Below, piece by piece: positions 40,564 through 57,328 of a stretch of DNA of 64,000 bases (within the stretch, counting starts at the first letter, position 1; each line of letters starts with the position of its first letter). The notes beneath the pieces are model-generated. The model did no database searches. It had not been told where the DNA came from and saw nothing but the letters and a program-made list of their open reading frames with translations. The DNA is taken from the NCBI RefSeq assembly GCF_001436695.1, contig NZ_AYZG01000051.1, positions 436,387 through 500,386 of the forward strand, in the 5' to 3' direction. A program made the translations under genes and the position numbers. Source of the stretch: Lactobacillus taiwanensis DSM 21401 (GTDB lineage Bacteria; Bacillota; Bacilli; Lactobacillales; Lactobacillaceae).

Positions 40564-41838
40564 TTAAAATAAAACATTCTTAGTAAATTTAATCGTTGGA
40601 CTACTGTTACCATTTAGTTCTTCTGAACCATATCTAATTGAATCTATACAGTGGTTATATGCGTCAATTGGACGATTAGTATATTCATTAGTTTTCTTGT
40701 CTTTCACATAAGTATAATTCTGCAATTCTTCAATAGTCTTAACGCAACGATCATCAACCACCCACTTAAACTGCTGCAAGAATTGAATACCCTGAATGAT
40801 GGAATCTGGTCCCTTTAATGCTGGTCGAATTCGATAAATTCCATCTCTCCGCATTTCAGCAATCGATTTCTTTTCAGCACTATCAGCTGTGATTACTTCC
40901 TTGCTATAGCCCATATCCTTAATTACTTGCGCTAATTCATTGTTAAGTAATCCTTTCTTAACAAACTCATCAATCACATAAATAACCTTGTTTTTCATAT
41001 CTATCTTGGTATGAGTGAATGCTGAAGGATCGTTAACATAACCAAAATCAAGACCAAAGTAATCAGGAATATTAACTAAGTCTTTGCTATGAGGATCTAA
41101 TCTACGAGTTTCAAAACTTGGAAAGACCAGCTTATCAAGTGTCGCAAACTCACCTAATGTATAAATCTTGTAATAAGCTGGATTAGTATTTTTCAGCTCT
41201 TCAATTGTTCTGATATTATCTTCATCTAAAAATCTATTATCTTTATAAGTTGATTGATGGATAGCTACCCTTGACCGGTCATAATCTGCACTTGGATCAA
41301 ACCAAGTCTGATAAGTCCAATTAAGCTTGCTAACTGGATTAAACATACAGAAAATTTGTCTTTGCTTATGTTTTGGTTCACGAAGTCTAAGAGTTAACTG
41401 AGTGTAGTCATTATGATTAAACTCACTTGCTTCTTCCATAACCACATCAGAGAGTCCCTTAATAGATTTAATCTTTTCTGGGTCGTCTAATCCCTTGAAA
41501 AGAAAAACCGCACCATTCGGTAAATGAATAGTACGGTTTGATTTATTAATTCTACATAATGGCAATATCTGCCAATTGGATAAGCAATCAATAACATCGG
41601 TAAAAATAGATTCTTGAATGTTTCTATCAACTTTTCGCATCCATAAAACTTTTCTAGGTGTTGGCCAATGCTTAAGAGATTTAAGAATAACTTTTTGAAC
41701 TACACCATGAGACTTGCCAGAACTAGCACCACCATACCAGACTTCTGTAAAGTGGGTATAATCAAAAAGGTTATCAAAGATCTGCTTATTAAAAATATTA
41801 TAGGGTTTAGGGAAGTTTAAATTAATTGTCGGCATCAT
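40564..41838 (-). CDS. Terminase large subunit (PBSX/SPP1-like)
   Basis: 424 residues: ATPase with Walker A GGASSGKS (36-43) and Walker B VVMEEASEF, then an RNase-H-fold nuclease with LDFGYVNDPS, ADSAEKK and HCIDSIRYG. Cuts concatemers and drives packaging. It overlaps the small subunit gene by 17 bases. Confidence 0.95.
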   Translation of the reverse strand: MMPTINLNFPKPYNIFNKQIFDNLFDYTHFTEVWYGGASSGKSHGVVQKVILKSLKHWPTPRKVLWMRKVDRNIQESIFTDVIDCLSNWQILPLCRINKSNRTIHLPNGAVFLFKGLDDPEKIKSIKGLSDVVMEEASEFNHNDYTQLTLRLREPKHKQRQIFCMFNPVSKLNWTYQTWFDPSADYDRSRVAIHQSTYKDNRFLDEDNIRTIEELKNTNPAYYKIYTLGEFATLDKLVFPSFETRRLDPHSKDLVNIPDYFGLDFGYVNDPSAFTHTKIDMKNKVIYVIDEFVKKGLLNNELAQVIKDMGYSKEVITADSAEKKSIAEMRRDGIYRIRPALKGPDSIIQGIQFLQQFKWVVDDRCVKTIEELQNYTYVKDKKTNEYTNRPIDAYNHCIDSIRYGSEELNGNSSPTIKFTKNVLF

Positions 41839-42253
41839 AATCCCCCATTCCTATTTCAATGCTTAAATCGCCATTTATTTCTTTCTTATCGGTCCAAGCA
41901 CCATTACGCTTACCAATCAATTCAGCTGCTTTAATTCTATCTTTAGCTGAAACTTCAACATTAGAATAGACACCTTTTGATGTTGCTACCGATTCAGTCT
42001 GTTCACCACGCATTACCGAAGTAAGATATTCCATGACTTCGGTCATATCTGCTGTTTTTTCAGATTGAATTTCAGCATTGCGTTTTTCGATAGCTGCTTT
42101 AATGTCTGGTTTTGTTAGGTTTTCTTGACCAATTTTACGTGCCGTCTTTTTAGAATAACCAGCTTTAATGGCGGCTTGAGTAGCATTACCAGAGATAATG
42201 TACTCATCAATAAATCTACGTTGTTTCTGTGTCAATTTGGTAATGCTACTCAC
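41822..42253 (-). CDS. Terminase small subunit
   Basis: Recognises the phage pac/cos DNA. The N-terminal region (KQRRFIDEYIISGNATQAAIKAGYS) is the family's helix-turn-helix. The start is uncertain: GTG 42253 overlaps the GGAGG itself, whereas ATT 42244 stands eight bases after it and gives the common MTKLTQKQ-type N-terminus. Confidence 0.92.
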   Translation of the reverse strand: MSSITKLTQKQRRFIDEYIISGNATQAAIKAGYSKKTARKIGQENLTKPDIKAAIEKRNAEIQSEKTADMTEVMEYLTSVMRGEQTESVATSKGVYSNVEVSAKDRIKAAELIGKRNGAWTDKKEINGDLSIEIGMGDYDADN

Positions 42254-42258
42254 CTCCT

Positions 42259-42837
42259 TTATTTTTTACCTAACCAACTCATTACAAATTGAACAATACT
42301 TGGCAATATTAACAAGAATATATAGATAAAGGAATAATTTTTCTCTTCGGTTGTTTCTGTTATCTCTTTTCCAGCATATCTATACTTTTTACTTGTTACT
42401 TTTTTAACTGGATAAAAAATTTCATTTAATTTAGCAAAATTTAATTTATTAAATGTCAGTGCTATTCTGGAGCTAATAAAAATATCTCCTATAACAAATA
42501 ACCCTAATAAAGCAGGATTATCAAAATTCACATTAGCAATCGGTGCTATTAATGAAAATAGTACAACTAAAAGGCCTAAAAAGGTATATCTTAGTTTTTT
42601 CGCAGTTGCTACTATACAAATCAAGGCTAAAATAGTTAAAAATGCCCACACTGCAATACTTTTAATGTATTTTACATAGAGCGGACTATAGTTAATTAAC
42701 AAATATTCTATAAGAATTAACAAAGAAAATGTAATAACAAAAGCAATTAATATTTTAAAATATTTTTCAACAATTTCACCTATTTTATCAACCCATCCAC
42801 TTAATTTATCAAAAAAATTAGTTTTTTTCTTTTTCAG
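42259..42837 (-). CDS. Phage membrane protein of unknown function, probable CTG start
   Basis: 192 residues if begun at CTG 42837, which has GAGGTG seven bases upstream; no ATG, GTG or TTG lies in frame before TTG 42723 (154 residues). A lysine-rich lead precedes four or five membrane helices and a last helix at the C-terminus. Not recognised. It is downstream of a tRNA-like element and terminator and may be a superinfection-exclusion type protein by position. Confidence 0.6.
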   Translation of the reverse strand: MKKKKTNFFDKLSGWVDKIGEIVEKYFKILIAFVITFSLLILIEYLLINYSPLYVKYIKSIAVWAFLTILALICIVATAKKLRYTFLGLLVVLFSLIAPIANVNFDNPALLGLFVIGDIFISSRIALTFNKLNFAKLNEIFYPVKKVTSKKYRYAGKEITETTEEKNYSFIYIFLLILPSIVQFVMSWLGKK

Positions 42838-42861
42838 TTTAATTCACCTCAGCAAAATTAT

Positions 42862-42895
42862 AAAAAAGCCTAACATATAATGCTAGACTTTTTTT
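42862..42895 (-). terminator. Terminator downstream of tRNA-like element 1
   Basis: A 13-bp stem with two G-U pairs and a TTTTTT tail on the minus strand, 37 bases after the tRNA-like element and just before the ribosome site of the next gene. Confidence 0.85.
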
Positions 42896-42914
42896 GAGAT
42901 GAATATAAATTGTT

Positions 42915-42930
42915 AGCCCAAATTAGGACT
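42915..42930 (-). other. AGTCC hairpin after tRNA-like element 1
   Basis: AGTCC pairs with GGGCT (one G-U) around a 6-base loop, one base after the element. An equivalent hairpin follows element 2 at the same distance. Confidence 0.55.
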
Positions 42931-42931
42931 A

Positions 42932-43005
42932 TGGCAAAGATAGGACTTGCACCTATGAAACCTTTCGGTGACGGATTTACAGTCCGCTGTCGTTGCTACT
43001 GGGCC
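42932..43005 (-). tRNA. tRNA-like element 1, tyrosine type (GTA anticodon), non-canonical
   Basis: Acceptor GGCCCAG against CTTTGCC (5 of 7 paired, a CC/TT mismatch in the middle), T8-A9, a reduced D arm of about 11 bases, anticodon stem GCGGA/TCCGT with loop CTGTAAA, a long variable arm (ACC-GAAA-GGT), T arm ATAGG/CCTAT and discriminator A. No CCA is encoded. The short D arm and mismatches argue against an ordinary working tRNA-Tyr. Confidence 0.5.
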
Positions 43006-43028
43006 ACCACCTTAATTGTGAAAAATGA

Positions 43029-43050
43029 AAAGACTAGCTTTTACTAGACT
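43029..43050 (-). terminator. Weak hairpin at the end of the SieB-like gene
   Basis: AAGTCTAG pairs with CTAGTCTT (one T-T mismatch) around TAAAAG and is followed by TTT on the minus strand. The gene's stop codon lies in it. Confidence 0.4.
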
Positions 43051-43566
43051 TAATTAATACTTCTTCATGTTCTTTTAAAAAGTTGAGTGCTTTTGGTTGA
43101 AGAATATAAAGTACTGGTGGATCATTTATATCTTCTATTTGACTCATACGCAAAACAGTTCTCCTTTTTAATTTCGCTATTACTTCATTTGCTAATAGCA
43201 TTAACACGTTAGGATTATTTTCTTTCAAATACCCCTTATATTGTGGCGGATTATTATACAGCTTTTTAACAATCTCTATCTCATCATCTGATAAATTTAG
43301 CATATATTTTTTAAATTCTTTTTCACGTTTAATGTAAGTTAATTTCTCCCAAATAACTTTTCCTATATCTAAAAGAATAGTTACCCAAAAAATAATACAA
43401 ATTAAAAAAGATGGAACTGCTAAAACAGAAAATAGTTCTTTACCTCCAGATAAAGTTTCAATATATTTTCTACACAACAAAAAATGCTAAATCCTATAGC
43501 TATTCCTAACCTAGTCTTCACGTCAGACTTAAAAGCCTCCCACGCTGTTTTTAATGTTTCTTCCAA
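43034..43566 (-). pseudogene. Superinfection-exclusion (SieB-like) membrane protein gene, frameshifted in a T-run
   Basis: The natural start is TTG 43566 with GGAGG upstream. That frame gives a helical lead and the start of a membrane helix, then leaves frame at a run of six T (43479-43484, minus) and stops at 43420. The remaining frame (from 43480) has a second membrane helix and a cytosolic domain (LNLSDDEIEIVKKLYNN ...) resembling the SieB family, which blocks infection by other phages. Seven T would give one protein of about 178 residues. It may be a true lesion, phase variation or a homopolymer error. Family call is moderate. Confidence 0.6.
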
Positions 43567-43600
43567 TTAATTACCTCCATTTGTTTCAAAAATAATTATA

Positions 43601-43635
43601 AAAAAATCAAGTCTAATTAAAAGACTTGATTTTAT
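43601..43635 (-). terminator. Terminator downstream of tRNA-like element 2
   Basis: A 12-bp perfect stem (AAATCAAGTCT and its complement) with a 7-base loop and a T-run on the minus strand. It is 36 bases after element 2 and about 35 bases before the SieB-like start. Confidence 0.88.
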
Positions 43636-43653
43636 GAAACAAACGGATTTTTC

Positions 43654-43669
43654 AGTCCTTTTTAGGACT
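43654..43669 (-). other. AGTCCT hairpin after tRNA-like element 2
   Basis: AGTCCT-AAAA-AGGACT, a perfect 6-bp stem, one base after the element. It has no T tract, so it is not itself a terminator. Confidence 0.6.
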
Positions 43670-43670
43670 A

Positions 43671-43726
43671 CGGGAAATACTGGAATCGAACCAAGCTTAA
43701 TGTCTCACCATTTAGAGATATTTCCC
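43671..43726 (-). ncRNA. tRNA-like element 2, lacking an anticodon arm
   Basis: 56 bases: a perfect 8-bp acceptor-like stem (GGGAAATA/TATTTCCC), a 4-bp D-like arm (TCTC/GAGA) with AATGG in its loop, a 9-base linker where the anticodon arm should be, and a T arm with the canonical GGTTCGATTCC. It cannot decode. The following hairpin and terminator repeat the layout of element 1. Confidence 0.5.
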
Positions 43727-43821
43727 ACCTGTTAAATACATATAGAGAGGAATTCTATTAATGCGGTGAATTAATTTTTATTAACTCACAATATATATTT
43801 AACCATAGCTAAGGACTATTG

Positions 43822-43851: not shown

Positions 43852-44307
43852 TTACTTATATTTATGAAGATCAATAATGGGTTCACAGTTGTTTATCCTC
43901 TGCCAGTAATCAAAACTGTCTGCAAAATCATAAAGAGCTTTCTTACGGGTATATCCAAGCTTGTTATGTTCACAAAATAATTTTTTTTGAACTTCATCCC
44001 ATGACTGCTGATAGATAAATAACCCTAGTAAAACTTTCCTTGAATTATCAGAACAATGTGCAATAGTATCAGCAACTGCTTTAATCATTGCTTCTGCATT
44101 AAGTCCACGAATAATTGCAGCTTCATTATGATTTTCTCCATTACTGTGACCAGGAGCAGCGCTTAGTACAGGTGACTTTAAATCTAAAAGATCATGACCG
44201 CTCATTAATAGCAATCTTTCAAGATCCTTAGTTAAAAACTTAGAAACAGATTTTCTAGTTTCTTCTTCATCTAATTCTGGAAATAATCCTAAGCTCACTG
44301 TACCCAC
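43852..44307 (-). CDS. ArpU-family phage late transcription regulator
   Basis: 151 residues, with a C-terminal sigma-70 region-4-like helix-turn-helix (SWDEVQKKLFCEHNKLGYTRKKALYDF). ArpU-type proteins switch on late genes in Gram-positive phages. It is the last gene of the early block, immediately before the candidate late promoter. Confidence 0.8.
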   Translation of the reverse strand: MGTVSLGLFPELDEEETRKSVSKFLTKDLERLLLMSGHDLLDLKSPVLSAAPGHSNGENHNEAAIIRGLNAEAMIKAVADTIAHCSDNSRKVLLGLFIYQQSWDEVQKKLFCEHNKLGYTRKKALYDFADSFDYWQRINNCEPIIDLHKYK

Positions 44308-55760: not shown

Positions 55761-56879
55761 ATGCCTAAAAGGAATAAACACATAAAACAATATAAATTAA
55801 AAAATGGTGATGTTCGTTACATGTTCCATGCTTATTTAGGTAAAGATCCTGTAACTGGGCAACCTATCCAAATCACTAAAAGGAAATTTGCTACTTATAA
55901 TGAAGCGAAAGAAGTTTATGATGAGTTTATCGCTAAAGGCGTTAAAGGCTATATTAAGCCTAAACAACATACAGTAGATGAAGTTTATAAGGTATGGTTT
56001 GAAGCCTATAAAGAGACCGTTAAACAATCTACAGCTAATAAAACAGCGATTAATTATAAGGTGCATATCAAGCCATGGTTTGGGAATGAGTATATAGATC
56101 AAATTGATACTGCCAAATTTCAGTCTTGGGTTAACTCACTTTATAAAAATTTAGTTAAGTACAAAGAAGTCATTAATCGATTTAGTCAAATTTATGATTA
56201 TGGGGCTGCATTAAGATATTGTCAAAAAATATATAATCCAGTTAATGCAGTTATTATTCCTCGAAAGACAAAAAGACGTCGTAGAAATATTCAAAAAAAT
56301 TTCTATACTTTAGACCAACTAAAGCAATTTTTGAAAGTTGCAGAAAAACAAAATTATCGTAGCTATACTTATTTTCTCTTGCTCGCTACTTCAGGAATTA
56401 GAAAATCCGAAGCATTAGCTTTAACTTGGTCCGATATTGATTGGAAAGCCAAAACTGTTTCCATCACAAAAACTTTAGCTTTAGGAATGGATAATAAATT
56501 AATTGTTCAAACACCTAAAAGTTTAACTTCAAATCGGCCAATTCCACTTACTGAACATATGATTACTGTTCTTAAAGAATATCGAAAACAGCAAAAAATT
56601 ATATGCCCTATCATTTTTCATGGCATTAGTAGTAATTACGTTAATCTTTCAAAACCTGATAGATGGCTACAAGCAGTTTACAACGCCGATAAATCACTTA
56701 AAAAGATCACGATTCACGGTTTTAGACATACTTATGCTACTCTTAACAAGAATCAAGAAAGAACTGATGTGGAAGCAGTTATGGGACATAACAGTGTAGA
56801 AATGACTGAACATTATACTCATGCCACTCAAGAAGGAATGGAAAATATCAGAAGTTATATGAACTCGTTAAATATTTAA
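55761..56879 (+). CDS. int: Phage tyrosine integrase
   Basis: 372 residues. An N-terminal AP2-like arm-binding domain (1-60), a SAM-like core-binding domain (70-165) and the catalytic domain with R214 (SGIRKSE), K253, H319-R322 (HGFRHTYAT), H343 and the nucleophile Y352 (TEHYTH). Catalyses integration at the tmRNA 3' end. AGGAGG lies eight bases before the ATG. The att core is 87 bp downstream. Confidence 0.95.
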   Translation: MPKRNKHIKQYKLKNGDVRYMFHAYLGKDPVTGQPIQITKRKFATYNEAKEVYDEFIAKGVKGYIKPKQHTVDEVYKVWFEAYKETVKQSTANKTAINYKVHIKPWFGNEYIDQIDTAKFQSWVNSLYKNLVKYKEVINRFSQIYDYGAALRYCQKIYNPVNAVIIPRKTKRRRRNIQKNFYTLDQLKQFLKVAEKQNYRSYTYFLLLATSGIRKSEALALTWSDIDWKAKTVSITKTLALGMDNKLIVQTPKSLTSNRPIPLTEHMITVLKEYRKQQKIICPIIFHGISSNYVNLSKPDRWLQAVYNADKSLKKITIHGFRHTYATLNKNQERTDVEAVMGHNSVEMTEHYTHATQEGMENIRSYMNSLNI

Positions 56880-56890
56880 AAAATCGTTTA

Positions 56891-56910
56891 TTGTATCAAA
56901 ATTGTATCAA
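56891..56910. repeat. Putative integrase arm-binding repeats, integrase end
   Basis: Two copies of TTGTATCAA at 11-bp spacing, identical in motif, orientation and spacing to the pair at 20746-20765. Confidence 0.6.
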
Positions 56911-56917
56911 AAATAAA

Positions 56918-56956
56918 TAAAAACCGCTCTAAATGTTGATATAGAGCGGTTTTTAT
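56918..56956 (-). terminator. Phage-borne terminator for the tmRNA gene
   Basis: AACCGCTCTA pairs with TAGAGCGGTT around a loop, with T tract on the minus strand, 10 bases after the tmRNA end. It replaces the host copy displaced to 20591-20630. Confidence 0.85.
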
Positions 56957-56965
56957 TCTTATCTA

Positions 56966-56978
56966 TGGAGATGAGGGG
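56966..56978. other. Attachment site core within the tmRNA 3' end
   Basis: TGGAGATGAGGGG, identical to 20640-20652. On the minus strand it is the end of the tmRNA T arm and the acceptor strand. Confidence 0.88.
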
Positions 56979-57328
56979 AATTGAACCCCTGTCCAAACGT
57001 ATTTCGTCGCTAACCTCTACGATCATAGTTATATTACTTAAATTCGCTTTGATAAAACGCCATATAACAGGGCTAAACTATCAAAACTAACCCAAGAATC
57101 TTATTTCTAACTATTAAGGTAAGTAGTTAAACGTAGCTCGTTAAATGGTAAGACCCGCAGACAGACACGAGCAATCCGTCATTGGATCACGCAGGCTGAC
57201 TAAGCAGCTACTGCGTAAGAATTTTCGTTATTTGCAGTTATAATTTAACTGTGACGTTTTTAACGTAGACGTGACCTACGAATCGCAGTCACCGCGAATC
57301 TACGCCTGTCGAATCCCAAAACATCCCC
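56966..57328 (-). ncRNA. ssrA: tmRNA (transfer-messenger RNA)
   Basis: Rescues stalled ribosomes. The 5' GGGGATG pairs with the 3' CATCTCC (one G-U); the T arm GGGGTTCAATTCCCC is intact, discriminator A, CCA not encoded. The tag frame (57200-57235) reads ANNENSYAVAA and a stop. About 363 bases. Prophage insertion restores the 3' end exactly. Confidence 0.95.

Follow-up and report, generated by a model that had tools for sequence, protein, structure and literature searches.

In most of the arpU-carrying Lactobacillus phages and prophages that we sampled, a structured, tRNA-like RNA stands at one fixed place in the leader of the late operon, where it has hitherto gone unnoticed. The two cassettes that we analyzed in Lactobacillus taiwanensis DSM 21401 are the local version of this wider Lactobacillaceae phage pattern. 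Taken by itself, the claim on structure and position is one that we hold with great confidence. The RNA family escaped notice because tRNA finders miss the tRNA-like structure (TLS) and Rfam has no model for it. The initial annotation knew of no described system with this arrangement, and the TLS family is indeed apparently undescribed in Rfam and the open-access literature that we searched, with some members annotated as tRNAs in Lj928 and Lj965. These findings provide a testable link between phage-encoded tRNAs, the purpose of which is debated, and late gene control.

tRNA-like structures downstream of arpU

We analyzed regions downstream of arpU homologues in Lactobacillus phages and prophages, which numbered 52 after dereplication via shared 12-mers (some are still related, and those arpU homologues with identities of about 30% or less are possibly not orthologous), with a pattern requiring a 7-bp acceptor stem and a T-arm of 5 bp closing a T-loop of 7 nt. 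A TLS was found in the first 600 nt after arpU in 43 of the 52 regions, compared to a mean of 0.25 in shuffled sequences (maximum, 2) and none on the antisense strand, and the 600 nt upstream of arpU contained a TLS in only 1 of 52. A hairpin followed just after the TLS in 24 of 52 regions, with at most 1 in shuffles and 1 on the antisense strand. The TLS was also present after arpU in other genera of the Lactobacillaceae (16/26) and in other families of the Lactobacillales (2/19).

Some occupants of this slot were intact tRNAs (Glu, Gln, Tyr, Phe, and Trp), others were TLSs without an anticodon arm, and at the far end of the range was a bare acceptor-T minihelix of 12 bp, as in phiadh (GGCTGGTAACGGTTCGACTCCGTTACTGGCTA). 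ARAGORN called tRNAs in 9 of the 52 regions, and 34 regions contained a TLS without a called tRNA. Fourteen minihelices had 98.2% paired cells, changes on both sides in 10 of 12 pairs, and a covariation of 1.04 versus 0.26 in shuffles; as these minihelices came from a pairing-based scan, the unbiased part of the evidence lies in the shuffles, antisense strand, and upstream flanks. The intact tRNAs in the same slot are consistent with an explanation in which tRNAs gained there degenerate, the layout is inherited via recombination, and the RNAs are idle. Also in line with this explanation, Lj965 has a prophage tRNA that could replace a host tRNA lost at integration (PMC10865867). However, decay would be expected to break stems at random, whereas acceptor and T-arm were kept with compensatory changes and the anticodon arm was lost in 43 of 52 leaders. 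Furthermore, the RNA of the first unit in L. taiwanensis is nearly identical across phages carrying different cargo genes. We consider decay an improbable explanation for these RNAs overall.

Pairing statistics of the 92 non-redundant elements that we collected are biased because pairing was used in their detection. None of these elements encoded CCA (0/92). A U occupied position +1 in 82 elements and +1 or +2 in 91 of 92, relative to a T background of 0.31. Short linkers contained GG within their first 8 nt in 22 of 28 cases versus 11 expected. Hairpins in 91 trailers started at positions 1 to 3 in 28 and at positions 4 to 6 in 14, with about 4 per 3-nt bin elsewhere. N-1 and N73 were pairable in 58 elements versus 35 expected, so the acceptor may exceed 7 bp in part of the set. 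As a separate observation, a motif of the type TAGTCCGNGATGACNNTAAACTA or CCGCGACGAC lies directly 3' of the TLS in distant phages (L009, L019, L020, L021, L030, and L091).

In 43 of 52 leaders, the motif TA[TG]TGT[CGA][GA] was present no farther than 220 nt from arpU, compared to 4 expected and 2 on the antisense strand. In its TATTGT[CG] form, this promoter-like motif precedes the TLS, and a short hairpin often comes next at the presumed RNA start. In L015, L016, L020, and L086 to L091, we also observed direct repeats of the GTAC or AGCGGA type with a spacing of approximately 10 to 11 bp before the TATTGT motif, which are probably the arpU operator.

An intrinsic terminator followed the TLS in 34 of 43 leaders (2 to 9, about 4, in shuffles) and was positioned 39 to 115 nt from the TLS in 20 of these 34. 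As in L. taiwanensis, these terminators lie between the motif-inferred late promoter and the late genes, so that late transcription must pass them, and structured RNA is found directly upstream. This arrangement supports the main rival to the processing model that we favor below, in which the TLS and hairpins act on RNA polymerase as an attenuator or antitermination leader, such that transcripts would end at the leader terminator in lysogens but pass it in the lytic phase. Structured leaders acting on RNA polymerase include the lambda late leader (pR'-6S RNA-tR'-Q) and the HK022 put antitermination RNA, and the lambda late leader is likewise a short structured leader that ends in a terminator between the late promoter and late genes. 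However, the lambda and HK022 leaders are without a tRNA-like domain, and here we find no known antiterminator but an upstream gene of the arpU type, the products of which are annotated as activators and not as antiterminators. Attenuation also leaves the strict tRNA-type T-loop, the missing CCA, and the U at +1 or +2 unexplained, and our scan found no terminator in 9 of 43 leaders. On balance, attenuation or antitermination seems a rather unlikely basis for these leaders, and it may hold alongside maturase processing.

Two leader-cargo units in L. taiwanensis

In the window (the whole 64,000-nucleotide stretch of DNA that was analyzed), both units are flanked by an arpU-type gene for a late transcription activator (43852 to 44307, minus strand; phrog_248 transcriptional activator, E=8e-35) and by terS, the first packaging gene (41822 to 42253, minus strand; PF03592, E=2e-36), and all leader and cargo features of the two units are likewise on the minus strand. 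The late-promoter-like motif, conserved in our motif scan of the 52 leaders, reads TATTGTG at 43787 to 43793, and the transcript probably starts at or just 3' of it. A predicted hairpin at 43766 to 43789 (GUGAGUUAAU/AUUAAUUCAC), kept as an inverted repeat in relatives, presumably forms the 5' end of the leader. The 230-nt leader had a fold z-score of -5.75. The elements recur downstream of a late-promoter-like motif and ahead of the packaging genes, and they keep their structure as their sequence varies, in line with the suggestion of the initial annotation that they are leader RNAs. Elsewhere in the window (55761 to 57328), an integrase-like phage open reading frame (55761 to 56879) adjoins ssrA (tmRNA, 56963 to 57328), and the tmRNA gene is probably the insertion site of the prophage.

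We confirmed the proposed tRNA-like fold of the first unit at 43671 to 43726. This TLS of 56 nt has a 7-bp acceptor (GGGAAAT/ATTTCCC), a D-arm, and a T-arm with the loop TTCGATT but is without an anticodon arm or encoded CCA, and nearly the same RNA is found in Lj928 and other phages. With a hairpin required, our strict scan of both strands of the 64-kb window matched only this unit; with this requirement dropped, the scan returned two true tRNAs, the first unit, and one weak chance match. Neither unit was called as a tRNA by ARAGORN or scored above the cut-off of the Rfam tRNA model (RF00005). Downstream of the first TLS follow one T and an AGTCC hairpin (TAGTCCTAAAAAGGACTG; 43653 to 43670, directly 3' of the TLS), an intrinsic terminator (43603 to 43633), a ribosome site, and a TTG start. 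The second unit has the same order, with a tRNA-Tyr-like RNA (42932 to 43005), one T, an AGTCC hairpin (42915 to 42930), a terminator (42862 to 42894), a ribosome site, and CTG. These results bear out the earlier description in that each RNA is followed by a single T and an AGTCC hairpin, each unit has a terminator (2 found versus 0.5 expected in shuffles), and strong ribosome sites precede both cargo genes. In contrast, the AGGTGG that had been taken as an element shared by both units is coincidental: in the first unit it partly coincides with the acceptor, and near relatives have AGCAAGTGG in its place.

Three features had been overlooked in that reading: the promoter-like motif, the upstream 5' hairpin, and a 12-bp stem that encloses each terminator. 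In the first unit, the 5' arm of this stem (CCGTTTGTTTCA; 43635 to 43646) pairs at 12 of 12 positions with 43577 to 43588, within a segment comprising the 3' arm and the ribosome site GGAGG (TGAAACAAATGG; 43574 to 43588), and comparison of the arms revealed compensatory changes in relatives. In the second unit, the 5' arm (ATATTCATCTCA; 42895 to 42906) pairs at 10 of 12 positions with a 3' arm that contains the ribosome site (TGAGGTGAATTA; 42840 to 42851).

The cargo of the first unit is a SieB-type superinfection-exclusion gene with a TTG start (43034 to 43566; PF14163, E=1.2e-11, 44.8 bits versus a curated cut-off of 26; phrog_33766, E=9e-43). The TTG start proposed at 43566 is conserved in Lj928, where the gene is intact, but the reading frame in the window is interrupted by a single-base frameshift within the T-run around 43479 to 43484, leaving open pieces at 43420 to 43566 and 43034 to 43480. 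A read error in a single assembly is a less likely cause, since the same frameshift is present in IMG/VR contig 2660238553, apparently the same prophage as in the window.

The second RNA had been described as differing in sequence from the first and as having kept different arms. It does have a tRNA-Tyr(GTA)-like fold, scoring 28.9 bits against the Rfam tRNA model, just below the cut-off of 29, with the GTA anticodon and T-arm kept and the acceptor stem broken; however, intact relatives show that it is not an independent fold. In the intact tRNA-Tyr of L024 and L038, GGCAAAG pairs with CTTTGCC, and that 5' strand is missing in the window copy. At the junction (43004 to 43017; comparison with L069, L075, L078, L024, and L038), the tRNA-Tyr body is joined to AATTAAGGTGGTGG, which also stands before terS in L069, L075, and L078, and GTGG is shared by both partners. 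Because the window copy lost the 5' strand present in L024 and L038 at this GTGG junction, the sequence comparison identifies the second unit as a recombinant copy with a broken RNA, in which a remnant of the terS ribosome site appears to have replaced the 5' strand of the acceptor. The tail of this remnant also accounts for the AGGTGG before the second unit, and the form of the junction suggests that recombination took place at a few bases common to both partners. The second module would then have been gained through recombination, with its tRNA-like part broken and probably idle. tRNA-gene decay explains the second unit but not the TLS family.

The cargo of the second unit encodes a hydrophobic protein of 192 amino acids with an apparent CTG start (42259 to 42837). 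Pfam and phrog comparisons placed it in no known family, and its relatives in viral contigs came from the same prophage only. The CTG proposed at 42837 agrees with ribosome-site spacing, but we rejected it as a conserved start because the sole relative found, in L024, is without CTG there.

Exchange of cargo modules behind a common terminator

The same slot, in which a TLS or tRNA leads via a T and an AGTCC hairpin to a terminator and a ribosome site, was found in Lj928, KC5a, and several prophages from IMG/VR and GTDB, and its cargo varies among SieB, DUF4145 proteins, SocA/Panacea, a TIR-like protein, and proteins without assignment. In this L. johnsonii-type slot, two 12-nt arms flank the terminator, pair together, and include or touch the ribosome site, so the ribosome site would be hidden in read-through RNA. 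Across ten modules, 10 to 12 of 12 positions pair, and the arms fall into two sequence types (type A, CCRTTYGTTTCA/TGRAACRAAYGG; type B, ATATTCATCTCA/TGAGGTGAATAT) with variants that change on both sides (TCAT/ATGA and TTAT/ATAA). Since cross-type pairing was also fairly high (mean, 9.5 of 12; the types are partly alike), the case for a stem enclosing the terminator rests on these double changes and not on totals. The proposed control of downstream genes by the leader is plausible, considering that a terminator and a stem predicted to occlude the ribosome site precede the cargo.

Our comparisons indicate that phages exchange the leader-terminator-cargo module and that it can occur in tandem, as in the window; Lj928 also contains a second terminator-cargo unit, the TLS of which has decayed. 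These results agree in part with the duplicated mobile cassette suggested in the initial annotation; we saw no mobility open reading frame between arpU and terS. The slot is a place where phages swap superinfection-exclusion and other accessory genes behind a common terminator and ribosome-site lock. In this respect, the modules resemble phage morons and SieB exclusion genes, which are accessory genes inserted among phage genes with their own regulatory parts, but the usual description of morons is without the leader TLS and ribosome-site-occluding stem found here. TATAAT follows the T-run of the terminator in most modules, and we looked there for an internal sigma-70 promoter that could drive the cargo but found no acceptable -35 element and no excess over shuffles.

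Two further cargo regions were observed. Behind a type B module in L019 (2236 onwards), the cargo has a C-terminal match to a TIR-type effector (PADLOC PDLC00733, E=3e-8) and is a possible defense gene in the slot. In L037 (5435 to 6332), the stem has lost its 3' arm, and the cargo is a SocA/Panacea-domain antitoxin-like gene with a partner, apparently with its own promoter.

Possible processing of the leader by tRNA maturases

The TLS keeps the features known to be read by RNase P and RNase Z, including the acceptor, the T-arm, usually the elbow Gs, no CCA, and U at +1 or +2. Retention of the acceptor, T-arm, and elbow while the anticodon arm was dropped suggests that the TLS is recognized by enzymes acting on tRNA ends and not by the decoding machinery. 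RNase Z is known to hold its substrate by the elbow and to cleave pre-tRNA that has no CCA immediately 3' of the discriminator (PMC8549757, PMC4919913, and PMC4810234), and for this reason we favor maturase processing. Activation by downstream uracil is named in the title of a 2012 paper by Pellegrini, which PMC4919913 cites. By sequence, our elements resemble such substrates in CCA (0/92), in U at +1 or +2 (91/92), and in the T at +1 of both window units.

We propose a model in which transcription would start at or near the 5' hairpin of the late-operon leader (approximately 43789) and pass the TLS, the second hairpin, and the intrinsic terminator before reaching the accessory and packaging genes. 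Host RNase P and RNase Z would cut the leader at the TLS and leave a downstream RNA headed by one or two unpaired bases, followed by a protecting hairpin. The terminator and the stem hiding the ribosome site would silence the cargo gene (SieB here) on read-through RNA. Our comparisons show the anatomy, position, conservation, and covariation of the elements and the placement of their U residues and hairpins, and from these we infer transcription start, cleavage, protection, and cargo insulation. We hold tentatively, at somewhat short of an even chance, that RNase P and RNase Z read the TLS of the late leader as a signal for processing and that the terminator and stem insulate the cargo. Several points argue against this model. 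RNase Z threads a single-stranded trailer and could be impeded by a hairpin that starts 1 to 3 nt past its cut site; the excess of pairable N-1 and N73 noted above is a further such point; the U+1 rule may be common to CCA-less host and phage tRNAs and thus reflect tRNA ancestry; and no sigma-70 promoter above chance explains expression of the cargo. A broader version of the processing model, which we put forward as possible with more reserve, is that the leaders form a tRNA-mimic RNA family derived from phage tRNAs freed from decoding, which may recruit host tRNA maturases to generate and protect the late mRNA and also to set free a stable small RNA. If true, this would be a new mode of late-gene control in Lactobacillaceae phages.

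The TLS resembles tRNA (RF00005) in its 7-bp acceptor, its T-arm with a canonical 7-nt loop, and often a D-arm or GG, and some members are intact tRNAs; most slot members, however, have no anticodon arm that could be used and go undetected by ARAGORN and Rfam, and a hairpin often follows directly. With tRNA-mimic processing signals (mascRNA-type 3' ends and viral tRNA-like structures), the leaders have in common a tRNA-shaped domain in a longer RNA and features read by maturases. They differ in being located in the 5' leader of a double-stranded DNA phage late operon, followed by a hairpin and terminator. T-box leaders share a 5' leader RNA, a terminator, and a tRNA shape, but a T-box binds tRNA in trans, whereas here the leader itself is tRNA shaped.

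Rfam models, which were run on most loci, matched only tRNA, tmRNA, and one ROOL RNA in the window and its relatives, with no T-box match. Weak STnc230 and MCS4 candidates were rejected as they were below the cut-off and located after the terminator. ROOL and GOLLD are large phage RNAs found near tRNA islands (PMC12286853). The one ROOL (RF03087, 121.6 bits) is at L035:1-577 (minus strand) and is cut by the locus end. Downstream of arpU in this phage, a tRNA-Gln and several tRNA-like elements in a row lead directly into the ROOL RNA. This connects the slot with the tRNA islands in which ROOL is known to reside. ROOL and GOLLD are thus similar to our RNAs as structured phage RNAs next to tRNAs and, in L035, by neighborhood. 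In contrast, the leader of the window and the long leaders of Lj928 and Lj965 match neither model; ROOL and GOLLD models likewise found no match in KC5a, phiadh, or the rest of the window.

The three to four TLSs in a row in L016, L035, and L086 to L089, together with the ROOL RNA after the row in L035, are what support a stable tRNA mimic acting in trans, in which the freed TLS, with or without its hairpin, would be a decoy or sponge for a tRNA-binding or tRNA-cutting host factor or part of a ROOL-type island. Since ROOL was found in one of the 56 loci scanned against Rfam and the TLS is placed in cis between the promoter and late genes, with no known target, we regard a trans-acting mimic as very unlikely. 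Ventura reportedly described in 2004 that tRNA genes between the replication and packaging genes are transcribed in the prophage state.

Finally, we observed long noncoding stretches in Lj928 (L002:2540-3240), Lj965 (L003:1600-2900), L007, L043, and L046 that contain more elements composed of a T-arm and hairpin (such as ...CTGCTCATTGTCCGGCGGAAAACGGAC and ...TTGCTCATTAGCCTAGG...CCTAGG), which are absent from Rfam. Such stretches may belong to a large structured RNA.
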